From Sphingomonas sp. LaA6.9 (GTDB taxonomy: Bacteria > Pseudomonadota > Alphaproteobacteria > Sphingomonadales > Sphingomonadaceae): DNA of 54,831 bases. The DNA is taken from positions 1 to 54,831 of the forward strand of contig NZ_JAKVIO010000030.1 in assembly GCF_022601895.1 (NCBI RefSeq), read 5' to 3'. A program made the position numbers and the translations under genes. The notes under the pieces are model-generated. The model was not told the DNA's origin. It saw only the letters and a list, made by a program, of their open reading frames with translations, and ran no database searches. Positions 893 to 19,829 of this stretch are shown here, one piece after another (positions within the stretch are counted from its first letter, which is position 1; every line of letters begins with the position of its first letter).

Positions 893-1080
893 GTCGCAAC
901 TCCCATGTCCGATGCCGCATCACCAACCCGGCAATGCGCGGCACGTTCCGTTCTATCGCCAACCCTTCTATTCGGGTCGGGGGCGCTTTCCAACGGCCCG
1001 CCGCACAAATCGGAACATCCCCTTCGAGCCGCGGGTTGCTTCCCTATCCCGATGACGGGACGATGCAGGAGGACCTTGCA

Positions 1081-1242: not shown

Positions 1243-1263
1243 GGCAATCGCTCAAGAAACGTC

Positions 1264-1290
1264 GGGGGCCGCCACGCGGCCCCCATTTTT
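1264..1290 (+). terminator. Rho-independent terminator after the Gln-rich gene
   Basis: A perfect 9-bp stem, GGGGGCCGC (1264-1272) pairing with GCGGCCCCC (1276-1284), has a CAC loop and is followed by ATTTTT. It overlaps the 3' end of the convergent nsrR-like gene. Confidence 0.9.
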
Positions 1291-1729
1291 ATCCGTCGCC
1301 GACCATGGCGCTTTCAGTGGAGAACAGCAGCGCAAGGTCGCTGCGCTTCACGAGAAGGTCATCGAGCGAATAGCCGTCGAGCACGGCCATGAATGCGGCC
1401 AGCGCCTCCCTGAGCGCGCCGGTCAATCCGCAGGCGGGTGCGATAATGCAGCTGCCGCAATCGACGAGATCGAAGCCGTCCTCGGTATGCCGCACCACCG
1501 CGCCGACATTGATATCCATGGCTGGGCGGCCCAGTCGCACACCGCCGAAACGGCCACGCACGCTGGTGACATAACCCGCATTCACCAGATCGTTGACGAC
1601 CTTCATCAGGTGGTTCTGCGAGATGCCATAGGCGCGCGAAATTTCGGCAATCGAGCATAGCTGTTCGGGGCGCGCGCCGAGATAGAGCAGCACACGCATT
1701 GCATAGTCGGTGTAGCGCGTAAGGCGCAT
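1289..1729 (-). CDS. nsrR: NsrR-like nitric-oxide-sensing Rrf2 repressor
   Basis: 146-aa Rrf2 regulator starting MRLTRYTDYAMRVLLYL. Three cysteines, C91, C94 and C100 (CGSCIIAPAC), and an N-terminal Asp at position 8 match the ligand set described for [4Fe-4S] NsrR proteins, although the first spacing (C-x2-C) is shorter than in the best-studied members. NsrR represses NO-detoxification genes until NO destroys its cluster. The divergent neighbours (truncated haemoglobin, DUF1971, Hmp) are classic NsrR targets and an inverted repeat lies between the two start codons, so autoregulation and control of hmp are likely. The symbol is assigned on context as well as sequence. Confidence 0.85.
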   Translation of the reverse strand: MRLTRYTDYAMRVLLYLGARPEQLCSIAEISRAYGISQNHLMKVVNDLVNAGYVTSVRGRFGGVRLGRPAMDINVGAVVRHTEDGFDLVDCGSCIIAPACGLTGALREALAAFMAVLDGYSLDDLLVKRSDLALLFSTESAMVGDG

Positions 1730-1785
1730 CTCATTCCCTTGTTTCTCGCCGTCTACTGACGTGGCGCCGTTATATGTATTTTTGT

Positions 1786-1825
1786 TGCATGTTTCAAATC
1801 AGCTGATACATGCACATAATACATG
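1786..1825. promoter_or_regulatory. Putative NsrR operator between nsrR and the haemoglobin genes
   Basis: A perfect 7-bp inverted repeat, TGCATGT (1786-1792) and ACATGCA (1808-1814), is separated by 15 bp. A third ATACATG copy lies at 1819-1825, just before the Shine-Dalgarno of the haemoglobin gene. ATG-centred AT-rich palindromes are typical of NsrR sites. Its position in the divergent promoter region supports a shared operator. Confidence 0.6.
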
Positions 1826-1840
1826 ATTGGAGCGTGAGTC

Positions 1841-2245
1841 GTGAACGATGCAGCACAGATCGACGATACGGGGCTCGAACGGCTCGTCGCGCTGTTTTAT
1901 GGCCGCGTCCGCGAAGACGCCGAGCTAGGCCCCGTCTTCAACGACGCCATCCACGATTGGCCCGAGCATCTCGACAAGCTTGTCGCCTTCTGGTCGTCGG
2001 TGATGCTGACAACGGGGCGCTACAAGGGCAACCCGATGGCTGCGCACCTGAAACATGCTGCACGGATAACCCCCGAACTCTTCGAGCGCTGGCTGACGCT
2101 GTGGAATCACACTGCGGCCGAGGTGATGGCGCCCGATGCGGCGGCTGCACTTCAGGGCAAGGCGGCACGCATCGCCGAAAGTCTGCAACTCGCACTGTTC
2201 TTCAGGCTCGAACCCCGTCCTGCTTCGAAAAAGGCGGCCGCGTGA
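1841..2245 (+). CDS. Group III truncated haemoglobin
   Basis: 134-aa globin of the short 2-on-2 class. The segment YKGNPMAAHLKH with H69/H72 contains the expected proximal haem histidine, and LFERWLTLW is the conserved helix that follows. The start is GTG, with GGAG 8 nt upstream in the operator region. Group III truncated globins are linked to NO or oxygen chemistry. Here the gene is the first of a three-gene unit with DUF1971 and Hmp, and its stop is one base from the next ATG. NO or peroxide detoxification is inferred from context. Confidence 0.85.
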   Translation: MNDAAQIDDTGLERLVALFYGRVREDAELGPVFNDAIHDWPEHLDKLVAFWSSVMLTTGRYKGNPMAAHLKHAARITPELFERWLTLWNHTAAEVMAPDAAAALQGKAARIAESLQLALFFRLEPRPASKKAAA

Positions 2246-2246
2246 C

Positions 2247-2516
2247 ATGACCGAGCCCTATCGCTCCACCGCGGTTTTCGACGAAACCACCCTCCCCGCA
2301 GCGCTGCGCGCGGAGCACAGCACCAAGGCGGGTGTATGGGGCATGGTGCGCGTCCTTGAAGGACGGCTGAAGCTGACCTGGCTCGATCCCGAAGGCGAAG
2401 CGATCCTTACGCCCGACACGCCCGGACTGCTTCACCCTCAGCAGCCGCATTTCGTTACGCCACTGGGACCGGTGAAGATGCGCGTCGAATTCTACACCGG
2501 CCCACCCGACGGCTGA
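2247..2516 (+). CDS. DUF1971 (YeaR/TehB-like) cupin-type protein
   Basis: 89-aa protein starting MTEPYRSTAVFDETTLPAALR. The pattern FDETTLPAALRAEHSTKAGVWG...LL.PQQPHFVTPLGPVKMRVEFY is that of the DUF1971 domain found in E. coli YeaR and at the N terminus of some TehB proteins, a small beta-barrel related to cupins. E. coli yeaR is induced by nitrate and NO under NsrR, which fits the location between a truncated globin and hmp. The ATG begins one base after the globin stop, so translation is probably coupled. The biochemical role of the domain is not known. Confidence 0.8.
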   Translation: MTEPYRSTAVFDETTLPAALRAEHSTKAGVWGMVRVLEGRLKLTWLDPEGEAILTPDTPGLLHPQQPHFVTPLGPVKMRVEFYTGPPDG

Positions 2517-2558
2517 TCCCCGCCTTTCGCAATTTCCCAACCCGACAAGGAAACGCTG

Positions 2559-3770
2559 ATGACCCAGTCTCTCAGCGAGCGCACGATCGCGCTCGTCAAA
2601 GCCACCGTCCCCGCGCTCGAGGCGCACGGTCTCGACATCGTGCGCGAAATGTATGCGCGCATGTTTGAAAATCCCGAGATCCGCGACCTGTTCAACCAGT
2701 CGCATCAGGGGGCGGACGGCGCACAGCCTCGCGCACTGACAGGCGCGATCCTCGCCTATGCGGCCAATATCGACAATCTTGGCGCGCTGGCGGCCGCGGT
2801 CGAGCGGATCGCGCAGAAGCATGTCGGGCTGCAGATACTCCCCGAACATTATCCGCACGTCGCGAACGCACTGCTCGGCGCGATCAAGGCGGTACTCGGC
2901 GACGCTGCGACCGACGAGATTCTCGCGGCCTGGGGTGAAGCCTATTGGTTCCTCGCCAACATCCTGATCTCGCGCGAGAACAATATCTATGGTGAACTCG
3001 CTGCGGCAGAGGGCGGCTGGGCCGGATGGCGCGATTTCGTGATCGAGAAGGTGCAACCCGAAAGCGCGGTAATCACCTCGTTCATCCTGCGGCCCGCCGA
3101 TGGCGGCGGGGTCATCCGTCACAGGCCCGGCCAGTACCTCACTTTCTGGCTCGAAATTCCCGGGAATCCGCCGATCAAGCGCAACTATTCGATCTCCAGC
3201 GCCCCCAATGGCGAATATTACCGCATCTCGGTGAAGCGCGAGCCGATGGGCCTTGCCTCGGGCTGGCTGCACGATCACGCGACGCCGGGGACGGTGCTGA
3301 AGGTTGCCCCGCCTGCGGGCGAGTTCTTCCTGCCCGAACGGCCCGAGCGCCCGGTGGTGCTGCTATCAGGCGGCGTCGGGCTGACGCCGATGGCGGCGAT
3401 GCTCGAGAGCGCGGCCGAGCGCCATGCCGATCTGCCGATCCACTATATCCATGGCACGCATGACGGCACGACGCATGCGATGCGCGCATCGGTGAGCGCA
3501 CTCGCGATGGCGCGCCCCGGCATCAAGGTGACGACCTTTTACCAGACGCCGCGCGCTGAGGACGTCATCGGAGAGCATTATGACCGCGCGGGACTGATCG
3601 ACCGTGACTGGCTGGAATCCGAGACGCCCATCGAGCAGGCGGACTATTTCCTGTGCGGCCCGCGACCGTTCCTGCGCACATTTGTTACCGCGCTGTCGCA
3701 AGCCGGAGTACCGGCCGACCGCATCCACTACGAGTTCTTCGGCCCCGCCGACGAACTGCTCGCGGCCTGA
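2559..3770 (+). CDS. hmp: Flavohaemoglobin, nitric oxide dioxygenase
   Basis: 403 aa, the usual length for Hmp. The N-terminal globin domain has B10 Tyr32, distal Gln56 and proximal His88. The FAD-binding domain has RNYSIS (208-213) and the NAD-binding domain has GGVGLTPM (271-278) and a C-terminal LCGPRPFL motif. It converts NO and O2 to nitrate using NAD(P)H in the cytoplasm. The Shine-Dalgarno AAGGAA precedes the ATG. It is the last gene of the putative NsrR-controlled unit. All expected catalytic residues are visible and I see no truncation. Confidence 0.96.
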   Translation: MTQSLSERTIALVKATVPALEAHGLDIVREMYARMFENPEIRDLFNQSHQGADGAQPRALTGAILAYAANIDNLGALAAAVERIAQKHVGLQILPEHYPHVANALLGAIKAVLGDAATDEILAAWGEAYWFLANILISRENNIYGELAAAEGGWAGWRDFVIEKVQPESAVITSFILRPADGGGVIRHRPGQYLTFWLEIPGNPPIKRNYSISSAPNGEYYRISVKREPMGLASGWLHDHATPGTVLKVAPPAGEFFLPERPERPVVLLSGGVGLTPMAAMLESAAERHADLPIHYIHGTHDGTTHAMRASVSALAMARPGIKVTTFYQTPRAEDVIGEHYDRAGLIDRDWLESETPIEQADYFLCGPRPFLRTFVTALSQAGVPADRIHYEFFGPADELLAA

Positions 3771-5992: not shown

Positions 5993-6709
5993 TCAGAAGG
6001 CCGCGCTGATCGAGAACAGCGCCGCGGCATCGACCGGCCGTGCGCCGCCGAGATCGGTGTCGACATAGGCGACGCCCAGTGTGAGCGCACTGAATGTGAG
6101 ATCGGCGCCGAGTGACCAGTCGAGATAATCGCCCTGCCCGGGCGCCATCGCGCCCTTGCTGCGCCCGAAATGGCCCTTCAGCGTCAGTGGTGTGCCCGTG
6201 ACGGGCGCGGCTGCGTCGCCGAACAGATAGAGATGATCACCGCCAAGGGCCGATTGATCCCAGCTATAGCCCGCGCCCAGCGTCGCCTTGACCGGACCGA
6301 TCTCGCGATTGAGCTTGGCTATGGTCTCGAAATAGTCGGCATTGCCCAGGCTGTCGTCGCCGGCAGGGTAGCTGTAATAGGTGATCGCAACGTCGAGTCC
6401 GGTCCTGGGCGCGATCGTCCCGGCCCAGCCGGCATAAAGGTCGATCTCGGTCGGCCCGTAGAGCTCGCCCATGTCGAGTGATGAGCCCCAGGCGCCGACA
6501 TAAAGGCCGCTTTCATGCGTAATGTTGATCGTGGCCTGAACTGCAGGATCATTCTCACTCAGCGAGATACCACGGAACCGATAGTCGCTGACGATCGCAG
6601 CGGAGCCCGAGACGGCGACGGACGATGGCGAGTCCTCCGCAAAGGCGGGCGAAGCAGGCAAGACGAGCGTCGTCAGGGCGAGAAATCTCGCCGGAATGAA
6701 AGGGCGCAT
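5993..6709 (-). CDS. TorF-family putative outer-membrane porin
   Basis: 238 aa with a Sec signal peptide ending near ASPAFA. The motif SDYRFRGISLSENDPAVQ and alternating beta-strand pattern to a terminal Phe are typical of the TorF/TIGR02001 family of predicted outer-membrane proteins common in sphingomonads. It is probably a small beta-barrel, but the substrate is not known. It is the first gene of a unit with the downstream chemoreceptor and is preceded by the TCCTATAA element 36 nt before the ATG. Co-expression with a receptor may couple uptake and sensing, which is inference. Confidence 0.85.
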   Translation of the reverse strand: MRPFIPARFLALTTLVLPASPAFAEDSPSSVAVSGSAAIVSDYRFRGISLSENDPAVQATINITHESGLYVGAWGSSLDMGELYGPTEIDLYAGWAGTIAPRTGLDVAITYYSYPAGDDSLGNADYFETIAKLNREIGPVKATLGAGYSWDQSALGGDHLYLFGDAAAPVTGTPLTLKGHFGRSKGAMAPGQGDYLDWSLGADLTFSALTLGVAYVDTDLGGARPVDAAALFSISAAF

Positions 6710-6745
6710 GGTTATCCTGTGCTGTCAGATTGAATGGCACAGTCA

Positions 6746-6753
6746 TTATAGGA
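6746..6753 (-). promoter_or_regulatory. TCCTATAA element upstream of the TorF-receptor unit
   Basis: The minus-strand octamer TCCTATAA, followed by T, ends 36 nt before the TorF start codon. It is one of eight such copies upstream of motility, chemotaxis or envelope genes in this window (see findings). It looks like an extended -10 element, and no consensus -35 is evident. Confidence 0.5.
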
Positions 6754-6870
6754 AGGGGGCCAGCCGCAACGGCCGCACGGCGCAAATTTCGGAAAATCCG
6801 CGAAATAACAGCGCCGCGGCTCCGGCAACCATGGTCAGGCCGGTAGAGTTACGCCTTCGAATTCGGGGGA

Positions 6871-6887
6871 TGGTGGACAGGGCTGGA
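6871..6887 (+). repeat. Distal attachment-site copy of the island
   Basis: The 17-bp sequence TGGTGGACAGGGCTGGA is identical to 21488-21504, the 3' end of tRNA-Tyr. Flanking bases differ on both sides (A versus G before, G versus T after), which sets the limits of the duplicated core. Confidence 0.9.
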
Positions 6888-6950
6888 GAGTCACTATCGC
6901 CAACCATGATATTGATTTTCCTAGGTTCTTACGACCCGGTTGATGCCCAA

Positions 6951-6971
6951 TCCGTACCTGTTTTCCGTACC
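6951..6971 (+). repeat. Left pair of putative integrase arm-type sites
   Basis: TCCGTACC occurs at 6951-6958 and 6964-6971, 13 bp apart in the same orientation, about 65-85 bp inside the left island end. The identical pair with the same spacing occurs at the other end, in the integrase start region. Matching repeats inside both ends are the usual layout of tyrosine-integrase arm-binding sites. Confidence 0.7.
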
Positions 6972-7008
6972 TATCGCAAGCATCCAAGGCGATGCGGACT
7001 CGTGCGCC

Positions 7009-7572
7009 CTAGCGCGCCATCCAATGGACGCGCCACGGGTGCCCTTCCTCATTGGTCGCAGGAAACGAATCCTTGTGGGCAACAAGCACGTTCCAAACGT
7101 CGTCGGGAACAAACATCGGCACATGCTCCATGTCAAAGACCTGTCCCGGACGGAGCGCGTTGCGGATGATCCCGCGCGCGAGAAGCGTGGCGGCGTGCCC
7201 CCCGTCTGCCGCACAATCAAAGCTCTTCTGGTTGTTCGCCAAAAGATAGCCGACAATCTTGCGCTCGTCCTCGGTCATGTGTGGGATGTAATCCGTCACC
7301 GCTTTTCGGCGCGCTCTGGAGTTCCGCCACCGGTTCCAATGCGTGACGAGCCCAATCATTTTCCAAAGGTCTCGAATGATAAGGGAGGCCCACAGTGCCC
7401 CCGCAAAAATGCCGATAAAGACCGCCAGCAACAGCATCCACGGCTCTAGGGGCGGCAAGAGCCCGCTCTTTGCGAGATACACAAAGACGCCACATGCAAC
7501 TGACAGGGCGAACGCTTGCGCCGCCGATGCCTTCAAAATGTCTGGTAGCTTCAAGCTTTCAAGCAATGCCAT
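7009..7572 (-). CDS. SieB-like superinfection-exclusion family membrane protein
   Basis: 187 aa from the ATG at 7572, chosen because GGGGAGGGG lies 6-7 nt upstream; a longer frame to 7605 has no such site. Two transmembrane helices are predicted in the N-terminal 60 residues, followed by a cytoplasmic part with the pattern MTEDERKIVGYLLANNQKSF and GHAATLLARGIIRNA, which resembles the superinfection exclusion B (SieB) family. SieB proteins abort or exclude infection by related phages. The family match is by recollection of pattern, so moderate confidence. It is the gene nearest the distal att site. Confidence 0.65.
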   Translation of the reverse strand: MALLESLKLPDILKASAAQAFALSVACGVFVYLAKSGLLPPLEPWMLLLAVFIGIFAGALWASLIIRDLWKMIGLVTHWNRWRNSRARRKAVTDYIPHMTEDERKIVGYLLANNQKSFDCAADGGHAATLLARGIIRNALRPGQVFDMEHVPMFVPDDVWNVLVAHKDSFPATNEEGHPWRVHWMAR

Positions 7573-7675
7573 GCGTGCCCCTCCCCAAGGCGCTAAACCT
7601 GCCACAGCAATCTCACATAGGATAGGATATCGCTAGGTTTCGAAGGGGCTCTTCAGGCACGGTGAAGGAGATGAC

Positions 7676-8047
7676 ATGGGAGTACGCTTCGAGCAGGGCA
7701 GCACAAGGAAGGTCATCATAATCGGCCCACTCGCGTTCAAGCTGCCCAAGGGTGCCGTCGGCAGGCGCTGCAATCTCCACGAACAAGGGGTCTGGGAGAG
7801 AAATCGGGCTCACGAATCGCGAGGACCACGCCTGTGCCCGGTTCGATGGTGTGCGCCCGGTGGATGGCTGCTGATCATGGCTGCAGCAGCACCTGCTCCT
7901 CTCGACTTCGACATCTGGGCGCTCGATGATTTCTGGGACTACTGTCCGGGTGACGATGAATGGCCGGGGGAGCCTAAAGCGGCTGACTGGGGTGTCTTTC
8001 AGGGGCGACTTGTCATGGTGGACTACTCCACCCCAGCGCTGACCTAA
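7676..8047 (+). CDS. Hypothetical island protein
   Basis: 123 aa starting MGVRFEQGSTRKVIIIGPLAFKLPKG, with a good Shine-Dalgarno (AAGGAG) 8 nt before the ATG. It is the only rightward gene in the island and lies between the SieB-like gene and the resolvase. The sequence is rich in Trp, Asp and Pro near the C terminus (DFDIWALDDFWDYCPGDDEWPG) and has three Cys residues. I do not recognise a family. A shorter minus-strand frame at 7613-7813 overlaps it but has no supporting features. Confidence 0.6.
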   Translation: MGVRFEQGSTRKVIIIGPLAFKLPKGAVGRRCNLHEQGVWERNRAHESRGPRLCPVRWCAPGGWLLIMAAAAPAPLDFDIWALDDFWDYCPGDDEWPGEPKAADWGVFQGRLVMVDYSTPALT

Positions 8048-8068
8048 TGTCCACTCAGGGGAACTAGG

Positions 8069-8089
8069 GCCCTGCGAAAAAAGCAGGGC
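8069..8089. terminator. Hairpin between convergent island genes
   Basis: A 7-bp perfect stem, GCCCTGC (8069-8075) and GCAGGGC (8083-8089), has the A-rich loop GAAAAAA. It lies between the stops of the hypothetical gene (8047) and the resolvase (8111). There is no clear U-tract on either strand. Confidence 0.4.
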
Positions 8090-8110
8090 ATCTCGCCCCC
8101 GAGCGAAAAC

Positions 8111-8665
8111 TTAGGCCACCTCAGCATCCCGCAGGCGGTATATGGTGGACCGAGCGACCCCGAGGCGCTTCGCGAGGGCTGCGGGGCGTTCGCCTCCTGC
8201 CAGCGCGGTCTTGATTTCCGCCGCGTCGATGGTCGCCGGGCGTCCCTTGTAGACCCCCTTGGCCTTCGCGGCCTCGATCCCGTCCTTCTGGCGCTCGGCC
8301 CTGATGTCCGCTTCGAACTCCGCCACGGCAGCCAGGACGGCGAGTGTCAGCTTGCCGGTTGATGTTGAGGTATCAATCCCCGCCTGTTGCAGGACGCGGA
8401 ACGATGCGCCCTTCTCCGTCACGCGGGCAATGATCTGGTGGAGGTCGATGACGGAGCGCGCCAGCCGGTCGAGGCGGGTGACAACGAGGGTGTCCCCTTC
8501 CCGGATGAAGTCGAGTGCAAGGTTCAGCTGCTCACGGTCGCTGGCCTTCCGTCCGCTCTTCTTCTCGGCAAACACCTTGGTGCACCCGGCATCCTTCAGG
8601 GCCTCCAACTGCACCTCAAGGGACTGGCCAGTGGATGATACGCGGGCGTAACCGATAACTGACAT
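8111..8665 (-). CDS. Tn3-type serine resolvase (no transposase nearby)
   Basis: 184 aa starting MSVIGYARVSS. The frame continues upstream to 8731, but GGGAG before 8665 sets the start. Catalytic Ser10 with R8, the TRLDRLARS motif near residues 66-74 carrying the catalytic arginines, the long E helix, and a C-terminal helix-turn-helix (GERPAALAKRLGVARSTIYRL) define a small serine recombinase of the resolvase/invertase class. It would resolve cointegrates or dimers at the res site directly upstream. No tnpA or Tn3-type terminal repeat is recognised, so it is either a transposon remnant or a stand-alone resolution module of the island. Confidence 0.92.
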   Translation of the reverse strand: MSVIGYARVSSTGQSLEVQLEALKDAGCTKVFAEKKSGRKASDREQLNLALDFIREGDTLVVTRLDRLARSVIDLHQIIARVTEKGASFRVLQQAGIDTSTSTGKLTLAVLAAVAEFEADIRAERQKDGIEAAKAKGVYKGRPATIDAAEIKTALAGGERPAALAKRLGVARSTIYRLRDAEVA

Positions 8666-8676
8666 GTGAAACTCCC

Positions 8677-8793
8677 TGTCCGATTTGGGTCTAGAGCCTC
8701 GCCAGTAGCTGTCCGACAAATGACATGTCAACCCATATCGGACGCAATGGCGACAGGGATAGGACGTCCGCTATGAGTATACCCATATCGGAC
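8677..8793. promoter_or_regulatory. res site with three resolvase-binding subsites
   Basis: Site I is 8766-8793 (28 bp; GTCCG and CGGAC ends, central AT at 8779-8780). Site II is 8710-8743 (34 bp; TGTCCGACAAAT with CCATATCGGACG). Site III starts with TGTCCGAT at 8677 and spans about 25 bp. The 22-bp gap between I and II and the subsite lengths copy the Tn3/gamma-delta res plan, with site III nearest the resolvase start. The resolvase promoter must lie within this region. Confidence 0.8.
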
Positions 8794-9343
8794 CATCAGC
8801 TCTGTCGACCCATCCCTCACATTCGAGACCAGTACTCGTCCTCGCCCACTCCGCCCCTACTTTCTTTGCAGGCCGTTTCGACAATGGGCCTCGGCCTAGT
8901 CATTGGGATAGGACCAAGGCGAGTTAGCAACCACGCTCACTGGGCAACCACCCCGATGGGGGGAAATGCGCTGTTGCGAGCGTAGGTATGGGCCTTCGAA
9001 AATCTGCACCAAATCTAACCGGCCTGCATCTCTCGTTGGTCGATGGGTCTCCCGAGGCGAACTGACCTCGGGGTGACCATCGTGACCGAGAGTTGCGGCT
9101 TGTGCCTGAAGACCATCCTGCTCCAGCCCCTTTCCTCGTCCTTTTTGAAGGGGATGGGGAAAGGGTTGGCGAGGTCTGCCCCACGTCGACTTTCTTCCAC
9201 GCCGGTCCGCCTTCGATGCCCCCAAGATTGAAGTGTCCGAAGTGCTCCCGGCATGATGCTTTCTGTCAGGCTTGCTTGACGGTCTTGAGCTTGGTCGAGC
9301 TGTGAGGTGTGGCTCTATAAGAAGGGGTAATTATCGGTGTGCC
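8794..9343. other. 550-bp gap with hairpins, no convincing gene
   Basis: Several overlapping open frames of up to 109 codons exist on both strands, but none has a good start or a recognisable product. The region holds a perfect 7-bp hairpin (CCCGAGG 9051-9057 with CCTCGGG 9066-9072) and a nested hairpin (CCCTTTCC 9128-9135 with GGAAAGGG 9158-9165, enclosing CCTT/AAGG). It lies downstream of the polymerase gene, so the second structure might end that transcript. A small RNA is possible but unsupported. Confidence 0.5.
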
Positions 9344-11854
9344 TCACGCGAACATGTACGTCGCGTCCAGCACGCTTCGAAGATCGAGTTCACCCTTGTT
9401 CGGCAGGGGCGGAACTTTCGCGCGCAGCTTGGCATCGTCGAGTTGTCCAAGAATCTCAGCGCGGAACTGGGCCAACGGGTCTGCTTCGTACATGGTCACG
9501 AAAGTCTCCCGCAGGAGCCGCGAGAGGCAGGCTGTGTCAGCCGCATGCGTTCCGAAGCTGTCATGAATGACGGCGATGTCGGTGATGCCTTCGTCGGCCG
9601 CAGCCAATACGGTCAACATCAGGTGGGCGGAATCCAGCGAGTGGACGAAGTTCGGTGCAATGCCGCTCAGTGCCCGCTTGCCATTTGTGAGGCGAAGGTC
9701 AGGGTCTTCGATGAAGTTCGATAGCGTGGGCGGACGCTCGTCGATCAACCCCAATTGCATGCGCTTTCCGCGAAACATCACCTCGGTCTTTTTCAGCTCG
9801 GTGTTCGGGTAGCGCTGTAGGACCGGAAGCCCTGCAGGCGATGTCCACCATATTGGTTGGTCAGCGTCGTTCATCACCTTGGCGGCGGAACGCAGCCATT
9901 TCATGGCTCCGCTCGCGGCTGGAACCGTTTCTTCAATCAGCTTGAACAGCCGGGTGGACAGCCACCGTGCAGCATCGAAGTTATCGGCACCCAGAAGATG
10001 TGGCGGAGCGCCGCTTGCCTTCGCCGCATCGTCGAGGTCATCCAGTTCCTTGACGATCTGCTCGGTCATGCTGAACGCTTTTGCCGAGTAGACGTACGTC
10101 ATGCACGGACGCTTCACGAGACCTCGGGTAATCTTGCCGCCCTTCCACGATCCAGCGAGGGAGTCGTTGCTCTCGTCCACCATCGCCTGCGCCTTCGCTG
10201 CGACCAAAGCGTAGATGTCCCCCGGCCTGCCTGTGGCAACCAAGTTCACATGCGGGGCCGCATCGGTGTCCCGCAGGAGCGCCGTGAGATGCTGCAGGCC
10301 CGAGTTCGATCCGTCGATGGCGATAGGCAGGCGCGAGACAAGCTCAGCGCCCTGCTCGACATAGCCCGCCCACTCGAAACATGCGGCCAGCGCCGCCCAC
10401 GGTTTATCGGCTCTCGTCCAGAACCGCTGACCGTCCAGCGGGTCTTTCGCGCTGTCGAGGATGGCTGCGGTGTTGGCGTCTACCCACTCAATGCGGTCAT
10501 CGAAGCTGACCTTGTCGATGCCGAACACATTGGCGACGTGGATAGCCAGCCATCGCGCGCCGTTTGCGCCCAGCGCCTTGCCTTGAGAGAACTCCAGCAG
10601 CGAGCGTCCGGTATCGCCAGCCTGCGGATGAGGTCCGGCCTGAGGGATGGGATAGACCCGGCCACGCCAGTCGAGGTCGTGCGGGAAATAGATCGCCGGA
10701 AAATCGGCCAGCTTGCGGGCAACCCAGAGTTGCTGTGCGAGGGCGAAGCGCTTGCTCTTGCCCCTTGCATTGCGGGCGTGGACTTGTGCCCTCGCGCGTT
10801 TCCAGTCGACTTCCAGCTTGGTGCCTTTTGCAGCGGTTTCGGGGCGCTCAGGCAGCGGCTCAAGGTCACGCAGCGGAAGACCCGCCATACCGCCACCGCT
10901 TTCGCTGATGGCTTCCATGACGTCCAGAACGCGCCGGTTGATGCGCCATGCGGTGTTCTGGATTGTGTTCACCCCCCGATAGACAGGGTCGATGTCCATG
11001 CCTTTCAACTCTTCGAGATACGGCCGCGCATAGGATTGCACCAACTGATTGCCGATAGGCGGTTCAAGATAACCGCCATCGGTTGGCGTCGTCCAAGGAC
11101 GTGGCGGGACGACCATCGGCAACGGCAGAGGATCGAGAAGTTCACAGCGTTTGTGCTGTTTTTCGAGCCACGAGAGAGCCTTGTCGGACATTTCCAGTCG
11201 ATATTCGTGACGGTAGTCCTTGCTACGGTTCTTCTTATTCAGCGTAAGCTCGAACAGCCCCGTAGCGTCCGCAGCAAGTTCGAGTAGTTTCGTTCCGAGC
11301 AGCAGCTTCTCCCTTGGCTCCCAATGCAGCGCTACGCCCTCGGCCTCGTGAATGGCCGTAACGGCGCGCTGTCGTTTGGCGCTGACCACCGAACGGCCTG
11401 CAAGGCTCCGCTGAACACCTTCGGCACCGGCGGGGTTCGCTCTAGCGAACTCCATGCCCTGTATGTGGTCCATGACAGCCCGCGCGACCATGTTCGCCGC
11501 GCTCTGTGCGCCAAGCTGTTGAGCGCCTGCCTGAATGGCACAGCGAAGCGTCAGGTACGCAAGCGCCTTCGGGTCTACGTCGTATGGCTTGAGGAGACCG
11601 AAAGCGACATGACGTCGGCCCGCACGGCCTGCCTTGCCTGACGCAAGGAACTCTTCGATTGCTTTGACAGTTGGCTCAAATGCCTGCCGCAGCATGGCCC
11701 GTCCGGGAGGAAGTGATGCTTCGTCAGCCTGTGGCCCGAACGCATCCATCCAAGATGCCGTCCGCTTGTTGCGGTACTGAGCCTGACCGATGGCGCGAGA
11801 CTCCGCTTCGAGGCCCCGCTGGCCCTCCATGAGATCAACTTCGACTTCTGACAT
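9344..11854 (-). CDS. T7-like single-subunit DNA-directed RNA polymerase
   Basis: 836 aa (T7 RNAP is 883). It aligns with T7 from end to end by eye. DWRGRVYP is at 395-402. IAIDGSNSGLQH has catalytic Asp514 (T7 D537). KRPCMTYVY has Lys581 and Tyr589 (T7 K631 and Y639, same spacing). SGIAPNFVHSLDSAH is at 730-744, and IHDSFGTHAAD has Asp765 (T7 D812). The polymerase ends in Phe-Ala as T7 does. The specificity-loop region is divergent, so its promoter should differ from T7. It starts 47 bp after the hsdR stop on the same strand and has only a weak ribosome site; a second in-frame ATG is at 11830. All catalytic residues are intact although no phage structural genes accompany it. Confidence 0.95.
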   Translation of the reverse strand: MSEVEVDLMEGQRGLEAESRAIGQAQYRNKRTASWMDAFGPQADEASLPPGRAMLRQAFEPTVKAIEEFLASGKAGRAGRRHVAFGLLKPYDVDPKALAYLTLRCAIQAGAQQLGAQSAANMVARAVMDHIQGMEFARANPAGAEGVQRSLAGRSVVSAKRQRAVTAIHEAEGVALHWEPREKLLLGTKLLELAADATGLFELTLNKKNRSKDYRHEYRLEMSDKALSWLEKQHKRCELLDPLPLPMVVPPRPWTTPTDGGYLEPPIGNQLVQSYARPYLEELKGMDIDPVYRGVNTIQNTAWRINRRVLDVMEAISESGGGMAGLPLRDLEPLPERPETAAKGTKLEVDWKRARAQVHARNARGKSKRFALAQQLWVARKLADFPAIYFPHDLDWRGRVYPIPQAGPHPQAGDTGRSLLEFSQGKALGANGARWLAIHVANVFGIDKVSFDDRIEWVDANTAAILDSAKDPLDGQRFWTRADKPWAALAACFEWAGYVEQGAELVSRLPIAIDGSNSGLQHLTALLRDTDAAPHVNLVATGRPGDIYALVAAKAQAMVDESNDSLAGSWKGGKITRGLVKRPCMTYVYSAKAFSMTEQIVKELDDLDDAAKASGAPPHLLGADNFDAARWLSTRLFKLIEETVPAASGAMKWLRSAAKVMNDADQPIWWTSPAGLPVLQRYPNTELKKTEVMFRGKRMQLGLIDERPPTLSNFIEDPDLRLTNGKRALSGIAPNFVHSLDSAHLMLTVLAAADEGITDIAVIHDSFGTHAADTACLSRLLRETFVTMYEADPLAQFRAEILGQLDDAKLRAKVPPLPNKGELDLRSVLDATYMFA

Positions 11855-11901
11855 AGACCGGACTTGCTTATCGTGATGGTAGGAAGACTGGGTTGAAGCA
11901 G

Positions 11902-14900
11902 TTACGGTGCCGCCGCTTCCGGCCCCTGCCCAGCCGCTCTCAACGCCTCATAGAGCTGCCCCGGCCCCAGCAGAATGTCCTTGAGACCCGCACGGACCTT
12001 GTCGGACCCGAGTGCCTGTTGGCTCATCTTCTGGTGAGCGTCTAGGGCGTCGATGATGGCGTTCAGGAGTTCATTGTCGAGCGTGGGCGACGAGGCGAAC
12101 TGAGCCTTGCTGTTGTTCTGCGCCTGCGTGACGAGTTCCTCGGACTCCAGCAGCTTGCCCCTGATAACCTCGTTCACATAGACGAGCTGGTCGCCATCGG
12201 TGAGGTCGCCATCGAACAAATCGTTCACGCGCTCGATGATCTCGCGCAGGAGGGCTTTCTGCCTCTCCTGAAGCGTCCCCGAGCCCGCATCCCCCACCGG
12301 CGCGATCTTTGGTGCTTCAGCGTCTCCGAGGATCATCGGCTGCTTGCCGAGCTTCTTGAGGGCGTGGTGGGTGAGGACGAGCTGCGACACGTCGACCGTC
12401 GTCCGCTCGCGCCCGAAATCAAGGAGGCGGACCAGATACTTGAAGAACAGGAAGCGCTTCTCGATGTCCGTGTTGCCGTAGTCGAACATCTGGCTGAGGA
12501 AGGTGTAGATGCGGATGAAGGTCTGCGCATCCGCCTTGAACATACTGAGCGCGTTCATTTCGTCGGACGCCGCAGCCGCTGCCTTCTGATCCTCCAGTTC
12601 CTCGGCGTTAGCCTTCGATTCCTTGGCAGCCGCGAAGCGTTTCAGCAGTCTATCCGCGACGGGCCCGACGGCTCCCGCCAAATCACCTTGAGTGGACTTC
12701 GGGTCCATGACGACGGCAGCGACGCGATCCACTTCAAAGCTGTCGTACCAGCCGCCCGCGTCGAGCTTGGCGCGAAGATCGTAGACGATGTCGGGGTTAG
12801 TCACGCCTTGGAGCTCGGCGGTCTCAAAATAGGTCCGGAACGCGGCGAGCACGTCGTCGGAGCTGTTCACGAAGTCGAGGACGTACGTCGTGTCTTTGCC
12901 TGGATGGGCACGGTTGAGGCGCGACAGTGTCTGCACGGCCTGAACACCCGCCAGCCGCCGGTCGACGTACATGCCGCAGAGCAACGGCTGGTCGAAGCCG
13001 GTCTGGAACTTGTTGGCGACGAGGAGCAGGTGATAGTCCTCCGCCTTGAAGGCGTCGCGTATGTCACTGCCCTTCAGGTTCGGGTTCAACTCCTTGCTCG
13101 CCTCGCTCAGCGGCTCAGGAAAGGAGTCGGGATCATTGACCTCGCCCGAGAAAGCAACGAGCGTTCCGAGCGGGTAACCTTGGCCCTTGATATATTTGTC
13201 GATAGCGAGCTTCCAGCGCACAGCCTCCTTGCGGCTGCTGAGCACGACCATCGCCTTCGCCTTGCCCTCCAGCAGCGGCTGGACGTTCTCACGGAAGTGC
13301 TCGACGACGATCTGGACCTTCTGGACGATGTTGTAGGGATGCAGCGAGACCCACTGCATGATCCCCTTCATCGCGGTCGAGCGCTCGACCTCGTCGTCGC
13401 CCATCTCCTGGCCGCCATGAGCGAGCTTGAAGGCCAGTTTGTAGGGTGTGTAGTTCTTGAGGACGTCGAGGATAAAGCCCTCTTCGATGGCCTGCCGCAT
13501 CGAGTAGACGTGGAATGGCTCGGGGAGCCCGCCGACTTGCTTGGGACGCCCGAAGAGCTGCAGCGTCTTGGCCTTGGGCGTCGCGGTGAAGGCGACGTAG
13601 GTCACGCCCTTGTCACTCGCCCGCGAGGCCATCTGGGCAGCCAGCAGGTCCTCCGTGTCGATCTCGCCGCCGTCGTGCAGTTCGGCGACCTCCTCGGGAG
13701 AGAGCACCTCCTTGAGCTTCGCCGCCGCTTCGCCCGTCTGCGAGCTGTGCGCCTCGTCCGCGATCACCGCGAAGCGCTTGCCCTCGGTTGCCGCCAAGTC
13801 TCGCACGGCCTGCAGTGCATAGGGGAAGGTCTGGATGGTGCAGACTATGATCTTCTTGCCGGCCTTCAGCGCTTCAGCGAGCTGACCGCTCTTACTACCG
13901 CTGTCACTCTTGATCGTCTCGACGACGCCAGTGGTCCGTTGGAAATCAAACAGGGCGTCCTGCAGCTGACCGTCAATCACCCGGCGGTCGGAGACGACGA
14001 TCACCGTAGAGAACAGCTTCTCGTCGTTCTCGTCGTGCAGCTCGGACAGGAAGTGTGCGGTCCATGCGATGGAGTTGGTCTTGCCTGATCCCGCCGAGTG
14101 CTGGACCAGATATTTCCCGCCCACGCCTTCAGCCAACACCGCTGCCTGCAGTTCCCGCGTGACATCGAGCTGGTGGTAGCGCGGGAAGATGATCGAGCGG
14201 ATGTTCTTTTTCTCGTCACGCTGCGTGACGAGGTAGCGGCCGAGCAGTTCGAGCCAGCTGTCGCGCTGCCACACCCGCTCCCACAGATAACCCGTGGGAT
14301 GACCGAAGGGCTGCGTGGGGTTGCCTTTGCCGCCACGGTCGCCCTGGTTGAACGGCAGGAAGAAGGTCTGCGGCCCCGCGAGCTTGGTCGTCATCATTAC
14401 CTCGCGGTTCGACACCGCGAAATGGACGAGCGCCCCCGATGGGAAGCTCAGCAGCGGCTCGCGCTCATGGCCCTTCTGCTGCGGCAGACGATCAAAGCGA
14501 TACTGGTTGACCGCATCCTCGACTGACTGGGTGAAGTCGGTCTTGAGCTCGACCGTGGCGACAGGGATCCCGTTCAGGAAGAGGACGAGGTCGATGCAGT
14601 TCTCTTTGGCGAGGCTGTAACGGACCTGCCGCACGACACGTAGGCGGTTAGCGTTGTAGCGAGCGACGACGTCCGGGTTCATGCCCATAGCCGGCTTGAA
14701 CTGCGCCAGCGCCATCATCCCACGCACGCCAATCGTCTCGACGCCATTGCGGAGCACATCGAGTGTTCCACGGTCATCGAGCGACTTGCGGACGCGGTCG
14801 AGCAGGATGCCCTCCGCAGAAGCCCCGTGGAGCTTGGTCAGACTCTCCCATGCCTTGGGCTGCGTCTCCTGAACCCAAGCGACCAGATCGGCCGGGAACA

Positions 14901-15015
14901 GCGCCCGCTTGCGATCATAGGCCTGCGCGTCGCCGAACTCGTAGAGCCAGCCCTTGGAGGCGAGTACGGCGCAAACCTCGCTCTCGAAGCTGATCTCCTG
15001 ATGCAGCGCGCTCAT
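11902..15015 (-). CDS. hsdR: Type I restriction enzyme, HsdR motor/nuclease subunit
   Basis: 1037 aa, normal for HsdR. The N-terminal PD-(D/E)xK nuclease has Asp142 and VELK (E156, K158). Walker A HSAGSGKT is at 306-313, a DEAH box (IADEAHSSQTGE) near 420, and helicase motif VI-like QTLSRLNRAHPGK follows. It translocates DNA and cleaves at a distance after recognition of unmethylated sites by the HsdS-HsdM complex. Its start overlaps the stop of the GIY-YIG gene by 4 bp, so translation is coupled. The domains look intact. Confidence 0.95.
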   Translation of the reverse strand: MSALHQEISFESEVCAVLASKGWLYEFGDAQAYDRKRALFPADLVAWVQETQPKAWESLTKLHGASAEGILLDRVRKSLDDRGTLDVLRNGVETIGVRGMMALAQFKPAMGMNPDVVARYNANRLRVVRQVRYSLAKENCIDLVLFLNGIPVATVELKTDFTQSVEDAVNQYRFDRLPQQKGHEREPLLSFPSGALVHFAVSNREVMMTTKLAGPQTFFLPFNQGDRGGKGNPTQPFGHPTGYLWERVWQRDSWLELLGRYLVTQRDEKKNIRSIIFPRYHQLDVTRELQAAVLAEGVGGKYLVQHSAGSGKTNSIAWTAHFLSELHDENDEKLFSTVIVVSDRRVIDGQLQDALFDFQRTTGVVETIKSDSGSKSGQLAEALKAGKKIIVCTIQTFPYALQAVRDLAATEGKRFAVIADEAHSSQTGEAAAKLKEVLSPEEVAELHDGGEIDTEDLLAAQMASRASDKGVTYVAFTATPKAKTLQLFGRPKQVGGLPEPFHVYSMRQAIEEGFILDVLKNYTPYKLAFKLAHGGQEMGDDEVERSTAMKGIMQWVSLHPYNIVQKVQIVVEHFRENVQPLLEGKAKAMVVLSSRKEAVRWKLAIDKYIKGQGYPLGTLVAFSGEVNDPDSFPEPLSEASKELNPNLKGSDIRDAFKAEDYHLLLVANKFQTGFDQPLLCGMYVDRRLAGVQAVQTLSRLNRAHPGKDTTYVLDFVNSSDDVLAAFRTYFETAELQGVTNPDIVYDLRAKLDAGGWYDSFEVDRVAAVVMDPKSTQGDLAGAVGPVADRLLKRFAAAKESKANAEELEDQKAAAAASDEMNALSMFKADAQTFIRIYTFLSQMFDYGNTDIEKRFLFFKYLVRLLDFGRERTTVDVSQLVLTHHALKKLGKQPMILGDAEAPKIAPVGDAGSGTLQERQKALLREIIERVNDLFDGDLTDGDQLVYVNEVIRGKLLESEELVTQAQNNSKAQFASSPTLDNELLNAIIDALDAHQKMSQQALGSDKVRAGLKDILLGPGQLYEALRAAGQGPEAAAP

Positions 15016-15971
15016 CTGATCGGTTCGTCAAACAGGGCGTCGACCTCGGCGTTCAATTTCTGCGCCTCCCATTCCTTGTAGCTTCGCCCAGTTGCCACCT
15101 GCTTCCAGTCCTTAGCGCCGTTTGCCGACCGGCCGGTCGCAACAGAGGCAGCCGCACTCGGACTCTTGAAAGCGTAATTCTGCAGAAACTGCCAACGCCC
15201 TTCGGCTTGGCCGATCACTCCTTCGCGACGAAGGTCCCGATAGAGCGATGCATATGAACTCGGCCCATGGGATTCGCGAGCCGAAGAACCGGTCAACACG
15301 ACGAACTCCCCAGCTTCATTCTGCACAGCCTCGGCCTTGAATCCGTCCTTCCGCATTTCTAACACGAACCGTGGCTCCGGATTGAATGGCGCGCTGACAG
15401 TCGATCCGATCTCTGGAACCGAGCTTGCCGGGCGCCGCACCGTAGACTGAGCTGGCACGGGTCGAGTTCGTTGGATGAACATGTCGACGCGAACGGCGGG
15501 AAGGACGATAAAGAGGTTCTCCAAGAACGCTTCCATCTTTGCGATGTCGGCCTCGCTGAGGATGGCGGGCGTTGGGCTCGTGTTGTTGTCGAGCGGCACA
15601 CGACCGATGGTGCGCGCCTCGGCGATCAGCCGAGCTTCAAGGTAGCGCACATGAGCTTTGTTGAGCTTGTTGGCTGCGGCCGTGATCAGGACGGCGCTGG
15701 TCCACCATTCCTTGCGGACGTCGTGACTGCGGATGCGGGCCGAGATGTCCTCGCCCTCGCCCACATAGGCGCGCGGCTCGCCCTCCTCTTCTCCAATTAA
15801 CAGGTAAACGCCCGCATAACTTGCCTCCGGCCGCGCCAGCGCCTCAGCGATCTGGGTGCGCGGAGCCATCAGCACATGGCCGGTCCAGTTGAACAGCTCG
15901 GCCGTCAGCATCCCATCCGGCCGACCGTCGATGTAGTAGAGCTCCAGCGAGCGGCCGACCGCTGAGCTCAT
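15012..15971 (-). CDS. GIY-YIG nuclease-domain protein with C-terminal DUF4357
   Basis: 319 aa. The GIY-YIG core is at about 53-90 (AGVYLLIG, then RAYVGEGEDISARIRSHD, with Arg79 as the likely catalytic arginine). The C-terminal part (FKSPSAAASVATGRSANGAKDW) matches the DUF4357 pattern seen at the end of proteins linked to restriction systems. It overlaps hsdS upstream and hsdR downstream by 4 bp each, so it is an integral member of this type I operon. The role is unknown: an accessory nuclease or DNA-binding adaptor is plausible. Whether the catalytic Glu is present needs an alignment. Confidence 0.8.
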   Translation of the reverse strand: MSSAVGRSLELYYIDGRPDGMLTAELFNWTGHVLMAPRTQIAEALARPEASYAGVYLLIGEEEGEPRAYVGEGEDISARIRSHDVRKEWWTSAVLITAAANKLNKAHVRYLEARLIAEARTIGRVPLDNNTSPTPAILSEADIAKMEAFLENLFIVLPAVRVDMFIQRTRPVPAQSTVRRPASSVPEIGSTVSAPFNPEPRFVLEMRKDGFKAEAVQNEAGEFVVLTGSSARESHGPSSYASLYRDLRREGVIGQAEGRWQFLQNYAFKSPSAAASVATGRSANGAKDWKQVATGRSYKEWEAQKLNAEVDALFDEPIR

Positions 15972-17896
15972 AGCAGCGTCCCCGTGTTTGTTCTAGGACC
16001 CGAGCCGGCGGGGACAATGCCATGCCGACGCATCCAGCCCAGCCACTCGGCTAGCTCATGTGCGTGAAACTTCTCGCGCTTCTCTGGGTGCCAGTCATTA
16101 AGGAATCCAGAGATGATGTCCGCGTCGGTAGGCGATGCACCCTCAATGAGCGCGTCGTTCCACACGCCATAAAGAGTCGCCACAGCTTCAGCTCCTTTGG
16201 TGCTGAGTGTTGCGAAGTCGGCAATCAGCCTGTCAAACTTGGCCGTCCGATCCGCGCCGAGCCAGTCGGCAAACTCTTGGCGATGCGTGCCGCGCTGCTG
16301 ACCGGGTCGATAGTTGACGGTGGTGCCAGGGCCGCCCGGTTGATCGCGCCGGATGTCTGCCATGTTCCGAGCGCTGCTCTCCATCTCGTCGAGCATTGAA
16401 CGGTCGAGTGGGCCGGCAGCCTCGCGCGTGTAAGAGCCAGCAAGTTCGTTTACGCCGACGTGCGCTTCAGTGAGGAAGGCAATCTTCTGGAGCTTCACGC
16501 GGCCGAAGGTCGCCTGATGGGAGGAACGTTCAATGATTTCGACGGCGACCAGTCCTCGCGCACGGGATCGATCCATCGGAAATGTAAGTACCGCAGCTGA
16601 CTCGCGGACATCAATCTTGCCGGTAACGGAAGCGGAGATGAGAGCGGCGCGGTGCTCCTGAAGATAACCTATCGCCCGATTGGCTTCTTTAAGAAGAGCG
16701 TCGAAGCGTTCCACTTGTCCAGAAATGACCGTAGCGATCTGATGCTGTTCTTCCAGAGGGGCCACTGGAATCTTGAAGTTGATGATGTCGGAGATATTTA
16801 TGTGAGGGGAGGTCGCCCCGCCAAGATCAGAGAGGACCTGCTGGTACACTGCGTCGCTGTTGAGCGTCCACATCAGATAGGTCGGTGCAGCGGACGGAGC
16901 GCAACGAAACATCATCATGCGCTGTCCTAGGCAAAGTTCGACGCCCTCGGGGACCAGCGCTGCCAAGCCAAAGCGCTCACCTTCACGCGAATAGAGGACA
17001 TCTCCGGCAAGCGGACGGAGGCGCTGAATCCGCTCCTCGTATATTTCGCGCGACACGAGGCGCGCTTGATCAAGAAGCAACCTTCCTCGTTCGACATCGG
17101 CCGTACGGATCGCGGGGTAGATCAGTTCTCCGTCGTACGTGGGCGTGGTGTGCAGGCAGTCCACGACGTGTGAGCAGAGGTGTTTGAGGCTCCAAATGTC
17201 CCAATGCGCTGGCACGTCGCCCAGCCATTCCACGCCGGAGTCTTTCATGGGCACCGTGGGGTCGAGGCCCTTGGTTACCGCATGGGAGATGACGGCCTGT
17301 CGCTTCTCCTTGAGCAGCTCGATGAGCCGCCGCTGCTCATCCACCAGCGCATCGATCTTGGCCGTCTCGCGGTCGAGGAAGGTGGCGATGCCTGGAACAT
17401 CTTCATCCGGCGGAATGGCAACCCGTACATCAAGCAGATCGCCTGTGTTGAGACGCAAGAATGCCGTCCCCATTCCCCGACAGCGCGTAAATAGTTCTCC
17501 CGCTGCAAGGTCTGTACGAAGCGCCGCACAAAGCAGTGGGCCATACTTTGGCTGTAGGAAAGTGAACACCGAGTAGTCAGGGCTGACCATGCCGTGGTGT
17601 GACGAGATTGCAAACACGCCATTCCACGCCTGCATCTTGTTCATCACGAGCTGGCCGGGCTTTACCAGCTTATATTTCCCGTAGTCGCTGGATTCAGCGG
17701 CCCCCTGACTCAGTTCGGACCGCTTCACCACTCCCGCAGACTTCGACAGTCCAAGAAGTTCCACGTCTTGAGCGCCGACACGCTCGTCCACTTCCTCGAG
17801 CATTGTCTTCAGGCGCACAACTCGCCAATCACTCGGCACAAACCCAAGCCACTCAACGCCGCTATCTTGATAGCTCGGATAGGCCGGAAAGCTCAC
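15968..17896 (-). CDS. hsdS: Type I specificity subunit HsdS with extra C-terminal domain
   Basis: 642 aa, against about 400-450 for a normal HsdS. Two target-recognition domains (about 20-165 and 220-385) each begin with the repeat [10 protein letters not shown] and are followed by the helical spacers (165-208 and 385-425). After residue 430 there is a roughly 210-aa extension ([18 protein letters not shown], then [12 protein letters not shown]) of a different type, with a faint likeness to Panacea/DUF4065-type domains. HsdS determines the bipartite DNA target. It overlaps hsdM by 4 bp and the GIY-YIG gene by 4 bp. Confidence 0.93.
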
Positions 17897-19728
17897 GCCG
17901 CCAGTTCCTCAATCATCGCCTTGATCCGATCGGTCACCTGCTTGAGGTCCGCGTCGATCTCCTCCAGCGGCCGGGGCGGCTCGAAGACGTAGAAGTGGCG
18001 GTTGAAGGGAATCTCGTAACCCACCTTGGTCTTGCTCCCGTCAATCCATGCGTCCTCGGCATGGGGCAGGACTTCGCGGCGGAAGTAGGCCTCCACATCC
18101 TCTCCCAAGGGCACGTTCTCGGTATCGCGCAGGGCGCTGTCGGCCTGCGGCTTGCCCTTGGCCTTGCCGCGTTGAGCCAGCACCACGTTGCCCTCCTCGT
18201 CCCGCTGGGGGCGCTCGACGGTAATCGTGCGGTATCCGAAGGCGCTGTTGGGGAAGAGACGCGAGAGCGGGGCGAGCCTCACCTTGCCGCCCTCAGGCGC
18301 GTCCGGTGCCTTCTCGCCGACCCAAACGATCTCGCGGGCGACCTCCTTGCCGTCGGCGTCCAGCACGGTGGCAACCTCTGCTTCCTCGGCACGGCCGAAG
18401 AGCTGAGTGATCTGGCGGATGTGTTCCTCGCTCAGTTCCTTGCGCTTCGAGCCGAGAGACTTCCTCATCTTCTGCCAGAAGGCCGAACCGTCGATCAGTT
18501 GCACCTGACCCTTGCGGCCGGCCGGCTTACGGTTCGAGACGATCCAGACATAAGTGGCGATGCCGGTGTTGAAGAACATGTCGGTGGGCAGCGCGATGAT
18601 CGCCTCGACCAGATCGTTCTCCAGCATGTAGCGCCTGATCTCGCTCTCGCCGCTGCCAGCGCCGCCGGTGAACAGGGGCGAGCCGTTGAGGACGATTCCG
18701 AAGCGGCAACCGCCCTCGGTCGCCGGCCGCATCTTGGACAACATGTGCATCAGAAACAGCAGCGAGCCATCCGAAACGCGCGGGAGGCCGGGGCCGAAGC
18801 GGCCGTTGAAGCCCTGCTGTTCATGTTCCTTGCGGACTTCCTTTTCGACCTTCTTCCATTCCACGCCGAAGGGCGGATTGGCGAGCATATAATCATAGGT
18901 GTGGCCGTGGTGCCCATCGTCCGACAGTGTGTTGCCAAAGGCGATGTTGGACACGTCCTGCCCCTTGATCAGCATGTCCGCCTTGCAGATGGCGTAGGAT
19001 TCCGGGTTCAGTTCCTGCCCCGACATGGTCAGCCGCGCACCGGGGTTCAGTTCCGCCAGATGCTCCTCGGCCACCGACAGCATGCCGCCGGTGCCTGCGG
19101 TGGGGTCATAGATTGTCCGCACGACGCCGGGTTTCGACAGGACGTCGTCATCCTCAACAAACAGCAGGTTGACCATGAGGCGAATGACTTCACGCGGGGT
19201 GAAGTGGTCACCCGCCGTCTCGTTCGAGGCTTCCGCGAACTTGCGGATGAGTTCCTCGAATACGTAGCCCATCTGGTTGTTCGACACCTTCTCGGGGTGA
19301 AGATCGATACCAGCGAACTTTTCGATGACGAGGAACAGCAGCTTGGCACGGGCCAGCTTGTCGATCTGGTTGTGGAACTCGAACTTTTCGAAGATGTCCC
19401 GTACTTCGGGCGAGAAGCTCTGAACGTAGGACGTGAGGTTCGCGGTGATGTTATCCGGGTCGCCCAGCAGCTTCTGCAGGTCCATCGGGGAGGTGTTGTA
19501 GAAGCTGACGCCCGCCTTGCGGCGCAGGAACGGTTCGGGATTCAGGCCCGCGTTCGAGCGCAGGTCGTATTCGGCCAGAACGTCTGTCTTGGTTACTTCC
19601 AAAACGCAGTCGAGGCGGCGCAGGACGGTGAAGGGCAGGATGACCGAGCCGTAATCGGCTGGCTTGTAATCCCCGCGCAGCAGGTCAGCGACCGACCAGA
19701 TGAATGCGGACAGAGCGGCTTGGTTCAT
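17893..19728 (-). CDS. hsdM: Type I modification methyltransferase HsdM
   Basis: 611 aa. The SAM-binding motif DPTAGTGGM is at 208-216 and the N6-adenine catalytic motif NPPF at 284-287, preceded by the HsdM N-terminal helical domain. AAGGGG lies 11 nt before the ATG. As the first gene of hsdM-hsdS-GIY-hsdR it would let methylation be established before restriction. The gene starts 101 bp after the integrase stop; a weak TTGCAC/TAGCAA pair lies in that gap but I would not call it a promoter. Confidence 0.95.
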
Positions 19729-19829
19729 TACGATGTATTCCCCTTTGGCCGCTTGCTACGCGGGTGCGGCATTCCTGTGCAAGCGAAGAAGCGCGTCATT
19801 CCCCAAGACACAGGCTGGCAGGCGGACCG

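Follow-up and report, generated by a model that had tools for sequence, protein, structure and literature searches.

A T7-like single-subunit RNA polymerase gene of Sphingomonas sp. LaA6.9 was found to lie in a tRNA-integrated island, and the order type I restriction operon (hsd), polymerase, serine resolvase holds in 5/5 islands, that of the window included (the window is the whole stretch analysed, 54,831 bp of contig NZ_JAKVIO010000030.1). A promoter-like element 3′ of the polymerase gene, recognised from sequence, is new here. The best explanation, to which we give about an even chance, is that a captured polymerase-promoter pair serves tRNA-integrated hsd islands of ~14 kb, with a benefit to their expression or upkeep. 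Our literature search, restricted to papers outside subscription journals and preprint servers, found no description of an island joining hsd, a phage-type RNA polymerase and a resolvase. In PMC5512222 a single-subunit polymerase appears only as one reference title, and PMC10134795 describes temperate T7-like phages with an integrase near the RNA polymerase and T7-like prophages as widespread.

The polymerase gene and its island

The polymerase gene (9344–11854, minus strand) starts with ATG and encodes 836 aa. Pfam searches of this ORF returned RNA_pol (E 7.4e-106) and RPOL_N (E 3.1e-10), and PHROG 414 (RNA polymerase) covered residues 7–836 (E 1.8e-227), a full-length domain match. The best match among solved structures was T7 polymerase, over both halves of the protein, and D514, K581, Y589 and D765 aligned with T7 D537, K631, Y639 and D812, while the final residue aligned with T7 A883. 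The gap between hsdR and the polymerase gene spans 11855–11901. The sequence-only reading had described an intact T7-like polymerase with all T7 catalytic residues and a T7-like C terminus, lying 47 bp after hsdR on the same strand, and the alignment, the domain matches and the gap agree with this description. The protein is assigned to the T7-like single-subunit RNA polymerases, with putative transcription from a cognate promoter.

Because 17-bp copies of the tRNA-Tyr 3′ end occur at 6871–6887 and 21488–21504 (both minus strand), the island measures 14,634 bp (window 6871–21504). The right-hand copy lies within the integration target, tRNA-Tyr (GTA) at 21488–21573 (minus strand; ARAGORN and Rfam, the Rfam search finding this tRNA alone), and its exact repeat forms the distal, left island end. 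Next to the tRNA is a gene for a 531-aa tyrosine integrase (19830–21425), with a Pfam Phage_integrase score of 24.3 bits, below the cut-off of 27.1, and a match to phrog_1 integrase (E 1.5e-23); an integrase and direct repeats of the tRNA end together mark a tRNA-integrated genomic island. All three genes of a type I restriction-modification system are present: hsdM (17893–19728; N6_Mtase E 2e-59, HsdM_N E 2.2e-28), hsdS (15968–17896; Methylase_S E 1.9e-10) and hsdR (11902–15015; HSDR_N E 4.3e-16, SWI2_SNF2 E 3.2e-19). Between hsdS and hsdR lies a gene (15012–15971) for a DUF4357 protein (E 4.9e-15) of the PADLOC candidate defence family PDC-S14 (E 4.7e-109). An 838-codon open frame antisense to hsdM and hsdS (17599–20115, plus strand) is probably a by-product of GC-rich coding.

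On the other side of the polymerase gene is a serine resolvase gene (8111–8731, Resolvase E 1.7e-41), whose likelier start is the ATG at 8666. Putative res subsites adjoin it on the minus strand: site I (8766–8793), 28 bp with 10-bp inverted arms of which 9/10 positions are complementary, read from the sequence and conserved in part across the other four islands; site II (8730–8743), a conserved motif; and site III (8678–8695), also a sequence reading. The resolvase and these adjacent inverted-repeat subsites have the make-up of a res-resolvase unit. The distal arm ends with a gene for a 123-aa protein of a phage family of unknown function (7676–8047, plus strand; phrog_4301 E 5.9e-8) and one for a borderline SieB-like (superinfection exclusion) protein (7009–7605), which scored exactly the Pfam SieB cut-off of 26.0 bits and had no match in PADLOC, PHROGs or NCBIfam. 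Integrase, hsdM, hsdS, DUF4357, hsdR, polymerase, resolvase and SieB-like genes all lie on the minus strand, and the 123-aa gene runs opposite. A DNA search with 6888–9340 returned resolvase relatives only. Outside the island, two Rrf2-like regulators, a truncated globin and a flavohaemoprotein-like gene, recognised by eye at 112–3770, resemble nitric-oxide detoxification clusters.

Recurrence of the island and absence of phage genes

A pattern scan of GTDB contigs gave 10 relatives, four of which (L002–L005), all from Sphingomonas, were 64–66% identical to the window polymerase. In each of these four, hsdM and hsdR precede the polymerase gene and a resolvase gene follows it, and since the arrangement recurs in four other genomes, it is more than chance. 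All five islands are bounded by tRNA-derived end repeats, L002 and L004 at tRNA-Gln (17-bp repeats) and L003 and L005 at tRNA-Leu (24 and 14 bp), and the four others measure 14.06, 13.82, 14.17 and 14.49 kb, so that all five span 13.8–14.6 kb. HsdR of L003–L005 is 88–89% identical to that of the window, while L002 has hsdM, hsdS and hsdR of another type I family (hsdR 22% identical), with a 108-aa ORF between hsdR and the polymerase gene. The resolvases of the four others, in the same position, are 47–50% identical to the window's. The polymerase gene of L005 is broken into two frames, whether by decay or by error being indistinguishable since L005 is a metagenome assembly; the other four copies are intact. 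Between L002 (12515–14517) and L004 (12506–14264) the resolvases are 99% and the next genes 96% identical, whereas the polymerases share only 71%, and this pattern points to a recent exchange whose breakpoint lay near the polymerase 3′ end.

In a census that scored each genome for a polymerase match of any kind (the own genome included where present, sets overlapping), matches occurred in 4/59 relatives, 7/397 genomes of the family and 4/385 of the class. The genus Sphingomonas had matches in 8/295 genomes, four of which are the islands, and the other genomes of the window's own genus had 0/4. Four plasmid records matched the polymerase, all at <35% identity.

We searched by tblastn (E ≤ 1e-6) with proteins of the temperate Autographiviridae S2B (TerL, capsid, portal, large tail-region protein, DNA polymerase, primase-helicase and integrase) and jiawei (TerL, capsid, portal, DNA polymerase and primase-helicase). 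None of these queries had a match in the 54.8-kb window, and capsid, portal, terminase, DNA polymerase and primase-helicase had none in L002–L005 either, so the gene set of an Autographiviridae prophage was found in none of the five. A packaging, capsid-size or capsid-remodelling, or replication-initiator (rep) gene was likewise not recognised in the island. That the polymerase is unaccompanied by phage structural or replication genes had been read from the window's sequence, and the same now holds for its co-occurrence across the islands: hsd in 5/5 and phage structural genes, by tblastn, in none.

The hsd operon without the polymerase

HsdR of the window's type was found in 14/295 Sphingomonas genomes (E ≤ 1e-200), six loci being 87–90% identical. 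Three of these six are the polymerase islands L003–L005, and the other three (L111–L113) have no polymerase near hsdR. The integrase stretch of L111 is 84% identical to the window's over residues 366–528 (163 residues), and the place after hsdR is taken there (original coordinates 6599–10639, minus strand) by an 849-aa DpnII-nuclease/AAA (ATPase) fusion and an AAA_35 protein, a possible defence pair. L114 and L116 (hsdR 72%), the two read among the 68–72% hsdR loci, also had no polymerase. Given the gene content of these five loci, the hsd operon exists without the polymerase and other genes can fill the place after hsdR; such relatives, one of them beside an 84% identical integrase, suggest that the polymerase joined a pre-existing hsd island.

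Ancestry of the polymerase and selection on it

In a quick maximum-likelihood tree of polymerases (64 rows), the five island polymerases formed one clade (SH-aLRT 100), which joined S2B, jiawei and the genomic copies G029, G643 and G369 (support 98) and sits beside the temperate Autographiviridae. Identity of the island polymerase to those of S2B and jiawei is 46%. Phage DNA polymerase and primase genes lie near the polymerase in G029 and G643. In G369, an S2B-like integrase was the only match to the phage queries in the 19.9 kb read, and the C-terminal part of its polymerase aligns poorly. An arrangement with the polymerase always inside prophages and never near hsdR, which would have spoken against the sequence-only reading, does not hold for the island clade, though it largely does for the outgroup. 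The phage jiawei (our L057, OR464703.1) is recorded from Mycolicibacterium smegmatis, yet its proteins are 56–68% identical to those of a Caulobacter phage, and this host label may be wrong.

The four intact island polymerases (pairwise identity 64–95%) are under purifying selection, with dN/dS of 0.12–0.19 in their six pairs (NG86; dS >1 in 5/6 pairs); hsdR gave 0.05–0.09 by the same method. Between the window and L003, dS is 1.64 for the polymerase and 0.85 for hsdR, about twofold apart, so the two genes seem of different history, which suggests that the polymerase was reassorted among hsd islands.

A promoter-like element 3′ of the polymerase gene

The window carries the promoter-like site AATTACCCCTTCTTATA followed by GAGCC (9311–9332, minus strand), with −17 at 9332 and a proposed +1 at 9315; it points away from hsd. 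It begins 11 bp after the polymerase stop codon, where T3 has phi1.05. Alignment of the DNA 3′ of the polymerase among the islands revealed a shared block, and the element was kept while the flanking DNA diverged. In S2B a AATTACCCCATGTCCTAGGAGC-like site occurs three times, before the polymerase gene, after it and in the gap 26121–26233 towards the head genes, and the window's AATTACCCCTTCTTATAGAGCC has 15/22 bases in common with the S2B element. The jiawei site nearest the polymerase gene lies about 380 bp after it. These phage promoters came from reading the intergenic regions; repeat counting had returned GC-rich coding repeats only.

A phage-only matrix was built from three S2B and two jiawei sites, and it also finds a third jiawei site. 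The window site was the top hit in its island, with 17.6 vs 8.5 for the next, and 7/1000 random islands reached the window's best score anywhere, position not being required. In the whole host genome, ACCCCTTCTTATAGAG occurs once at ≤2 mismatches, against four occurrences of the reversed control. Counterparts stand at the same place in the other islands, CCCCTTCTCTATAGAG in L002 and CCCCTTTTTAGTAGTG in L003–L005, similar to the window site and differently spaced; the runner-up sites there have 6–8 mismatches. Counted from the stop codon, −17 lies 11 bp away in the window, 14 bp in L002, L003 and L004 and 15 bp in L005, compared with 11 for T3 phi1.05 and 8 for T7 phi1.1A. The ungapped phage matrix placed the L002–L005 sites outside the top five, because the spacing from the C run to TA is one base longer there, and found no such site in the prophages G029 and G643. 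Among 16 resolvase loci (one, L119, covered by just 420 bp of upstream sequence), the element was present in 4/4 beside a polymerase gene and in full in 0/12 without one, two of the twelve having loose partial matches >1 kb upstream. The prediction of an island-specific promoter class, with a motif conserved across homologous islands, was partly supported by the putative site and its four counterparts, which lie 3′ of the polymerase; the matrix ranking of the counterparts speaks against it.

Residue 748 of T7 RNA polymerase reads promoter bases −11 to −9, and N748D shifts its specificity towards T3 promoters. This position is D in T3 and jiawei, E in the window, L002, L003, L004, S2B and G029, and K in G643. 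T3 promoters have CCC at −11 to −9, as does the window site, and a C run is common to the island and the S2B and jiawei promoters. Around the specificity loop the island enzymes are longer by about 13 residues.

Downstream of the promoter there is no conserved ORF, and the RNA of this segment folds no better than shuffles (z −0.77, −1.21 and +1.85); a conserved small gene or RNA was dropped for lack of conservation. Searching viral_contigs with the island promoter patterns gave 7, 8 and 0 contigs with one match each, a chance-like result, and no viral contig with repeated copies; a candidate helper phage was not found in this way.

Proposed role and alternative explanations

In the best explanation, the core consists of the type I hsd operon, the captured polymerase of phage type, one cognate promoter 3′ of it and a res-resolvase unit. 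Transcription of the hsd operon by host RNA polymerase would yield the polymerase, whose gene comes last in it; the search for a host promoter of hsd identified none, with a single weak match upstream. The polymerase would then fire from its single promoter into the distal arm and transcribe, with no need of the host enzyme, first the res-resolvase unit and after it the variable accessory genes. Owing to a terminator-like hairpin 3′ of the window's resolvase gene and to the last gene of L003, which runs the opposite way, accessory genes may escape this transcript, and the resolvase is the sole downstream gene in promoter direction in 5/5 islands. On the excised circle the same transcript could cross the att junction back into hsd, because in 5/5 islands hsd and the polymerase gene are read the same way and the promoter points that way too. 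The idea that the polymerase transcribes the restriction genes is unsupported as it had been put forward, since the only promoter-like site points into the distal arm and hsd could be reached on the excised circle alone. The likeliest benefit would be expression and upkeep of the element during phage shut-off of host transcription, or just after entry into a new cell.

The pair might instead be the replication module of a replicon or satellite, its transcript priming DNA synthesis on the excised island as at the T7/T3 primary origin, perhaps with helper-phage machinery, and the resolvase resolving multimers. The site occupies the position of T3 phi1.05, directly after which the annotated primary origin of T3 lies; no other replication protein was recognised in the island; and a plasmid-like resolvase with putative res-like sites follows the polymerase in 5/5 islands. 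Sizes are uniform, and three copies (41.4–43.9 kb) come near S2B (45.7 kb) and jiawei (41.7 kb), but five sizes are a small sample. Against this, the sequence that follows the promoter is not AT-rich (GC 0.55–0.67 vs 0.30 in T3), no packaging or capsid-remodelling gene was recognised, and the viral contigs gave 0–8 single matches per pattern and no repeated island promoters. We regard this reading as doubtful, yet as the main rival. Less probable still is its fullest version, a mobile replicon in which the polymerase and one phi1.1-like promoter act as initiator and origin, transcribe the circle on excision, prime replication and switch on integrase and restriction genes together, with the resolvase breaking multimers and perhaps trimers delivered in T7-like heads.

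A fragment of a temperate T7-like phage (polymerase and 3′ promoter) captured with the islands and having no present role would account for the polymerase-promoter order, which is that of T7/T3 and S2B, for the sister position of the island clade to temperate autographivirids and for the one broken copy in five. It is nevertheless unlikely, as 4/5 copies are intact at 64–95% identity with low dN/dS, the polymerase was retained with two hsd families, and the element was preserved amid diverged flanks. The sequence-only reading had left a choice between a satellite or remnant of a phage and an enzyme recruited into a defence module. Recruitment fits better than a plain phage remnant on the sequence evidence, given the hsd link in 5/5 islands, two unrelated hsd families, selection and the promoter-like element, and the simple remnant was dropped as the main reading in view of purifying selection, the lack of phage genes by tblastn and the polymerase-less hsd relatives. 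A recruited enzyme could also be a direct anti-phage effector, acting on invading phage DNA with matching promoters and disturbing the phage programme. The coupling to hsd and to the candidate defence gene PDC-S14 speaks for it, as does the DpnII-nuclease/ATPase protein after hsdR in L111; yet a matching set of phage promoters was not found in viral_contigs, and each island keeps its own promoter copy, superfluous for an effector, which makes this role very improbable. The captured pair may serve part of the element's own expression or copying without host polymerase.

Relation to known systems and implications

The islands are like temperate Autographiviridae (Caulobacter phage S2B, jiawei, Pseudomonas phage LUZ100) in polymerase family, polymerase-then-promoter order and an upstream tyrosine integrase, but unlike them they had no capsid, terminase, portal, DNA polymerase or primase by tblastn, have the hsd operon between integrase and polymerase and one promoter instead of three, and their integrases are unrelated. 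With tRNA-integrated islands bearing type I restriction-modification they share integrase, tRNA-end repeats and hsdMSR, and differ from them by the phage-type polymerase with its own putative promoter and by the res-resolvase unit. Phage satellites (P4-like, PICI, PLE) are of comparable size, integrate at tRNA genes and carry defence cargo and a phage-derived regulator, as do the islands; in contrast to satellites, replication-initiator, capsid-size and packaging genes were not recognised in the islands, and the promoter search of viral_contigs found no helper.

If true, phages and organelles would not be the only places with a natural polymerase-promoter pair: bacterial islands without phage genes would have kept one, linked to a defence operon. 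A clean test is possible because there is a single promoter per genome. It would become testable whether an RNA polymerase can act as the initiator of a mobile element, and whether defence islands secure their expression under phage silencing of host transcription.
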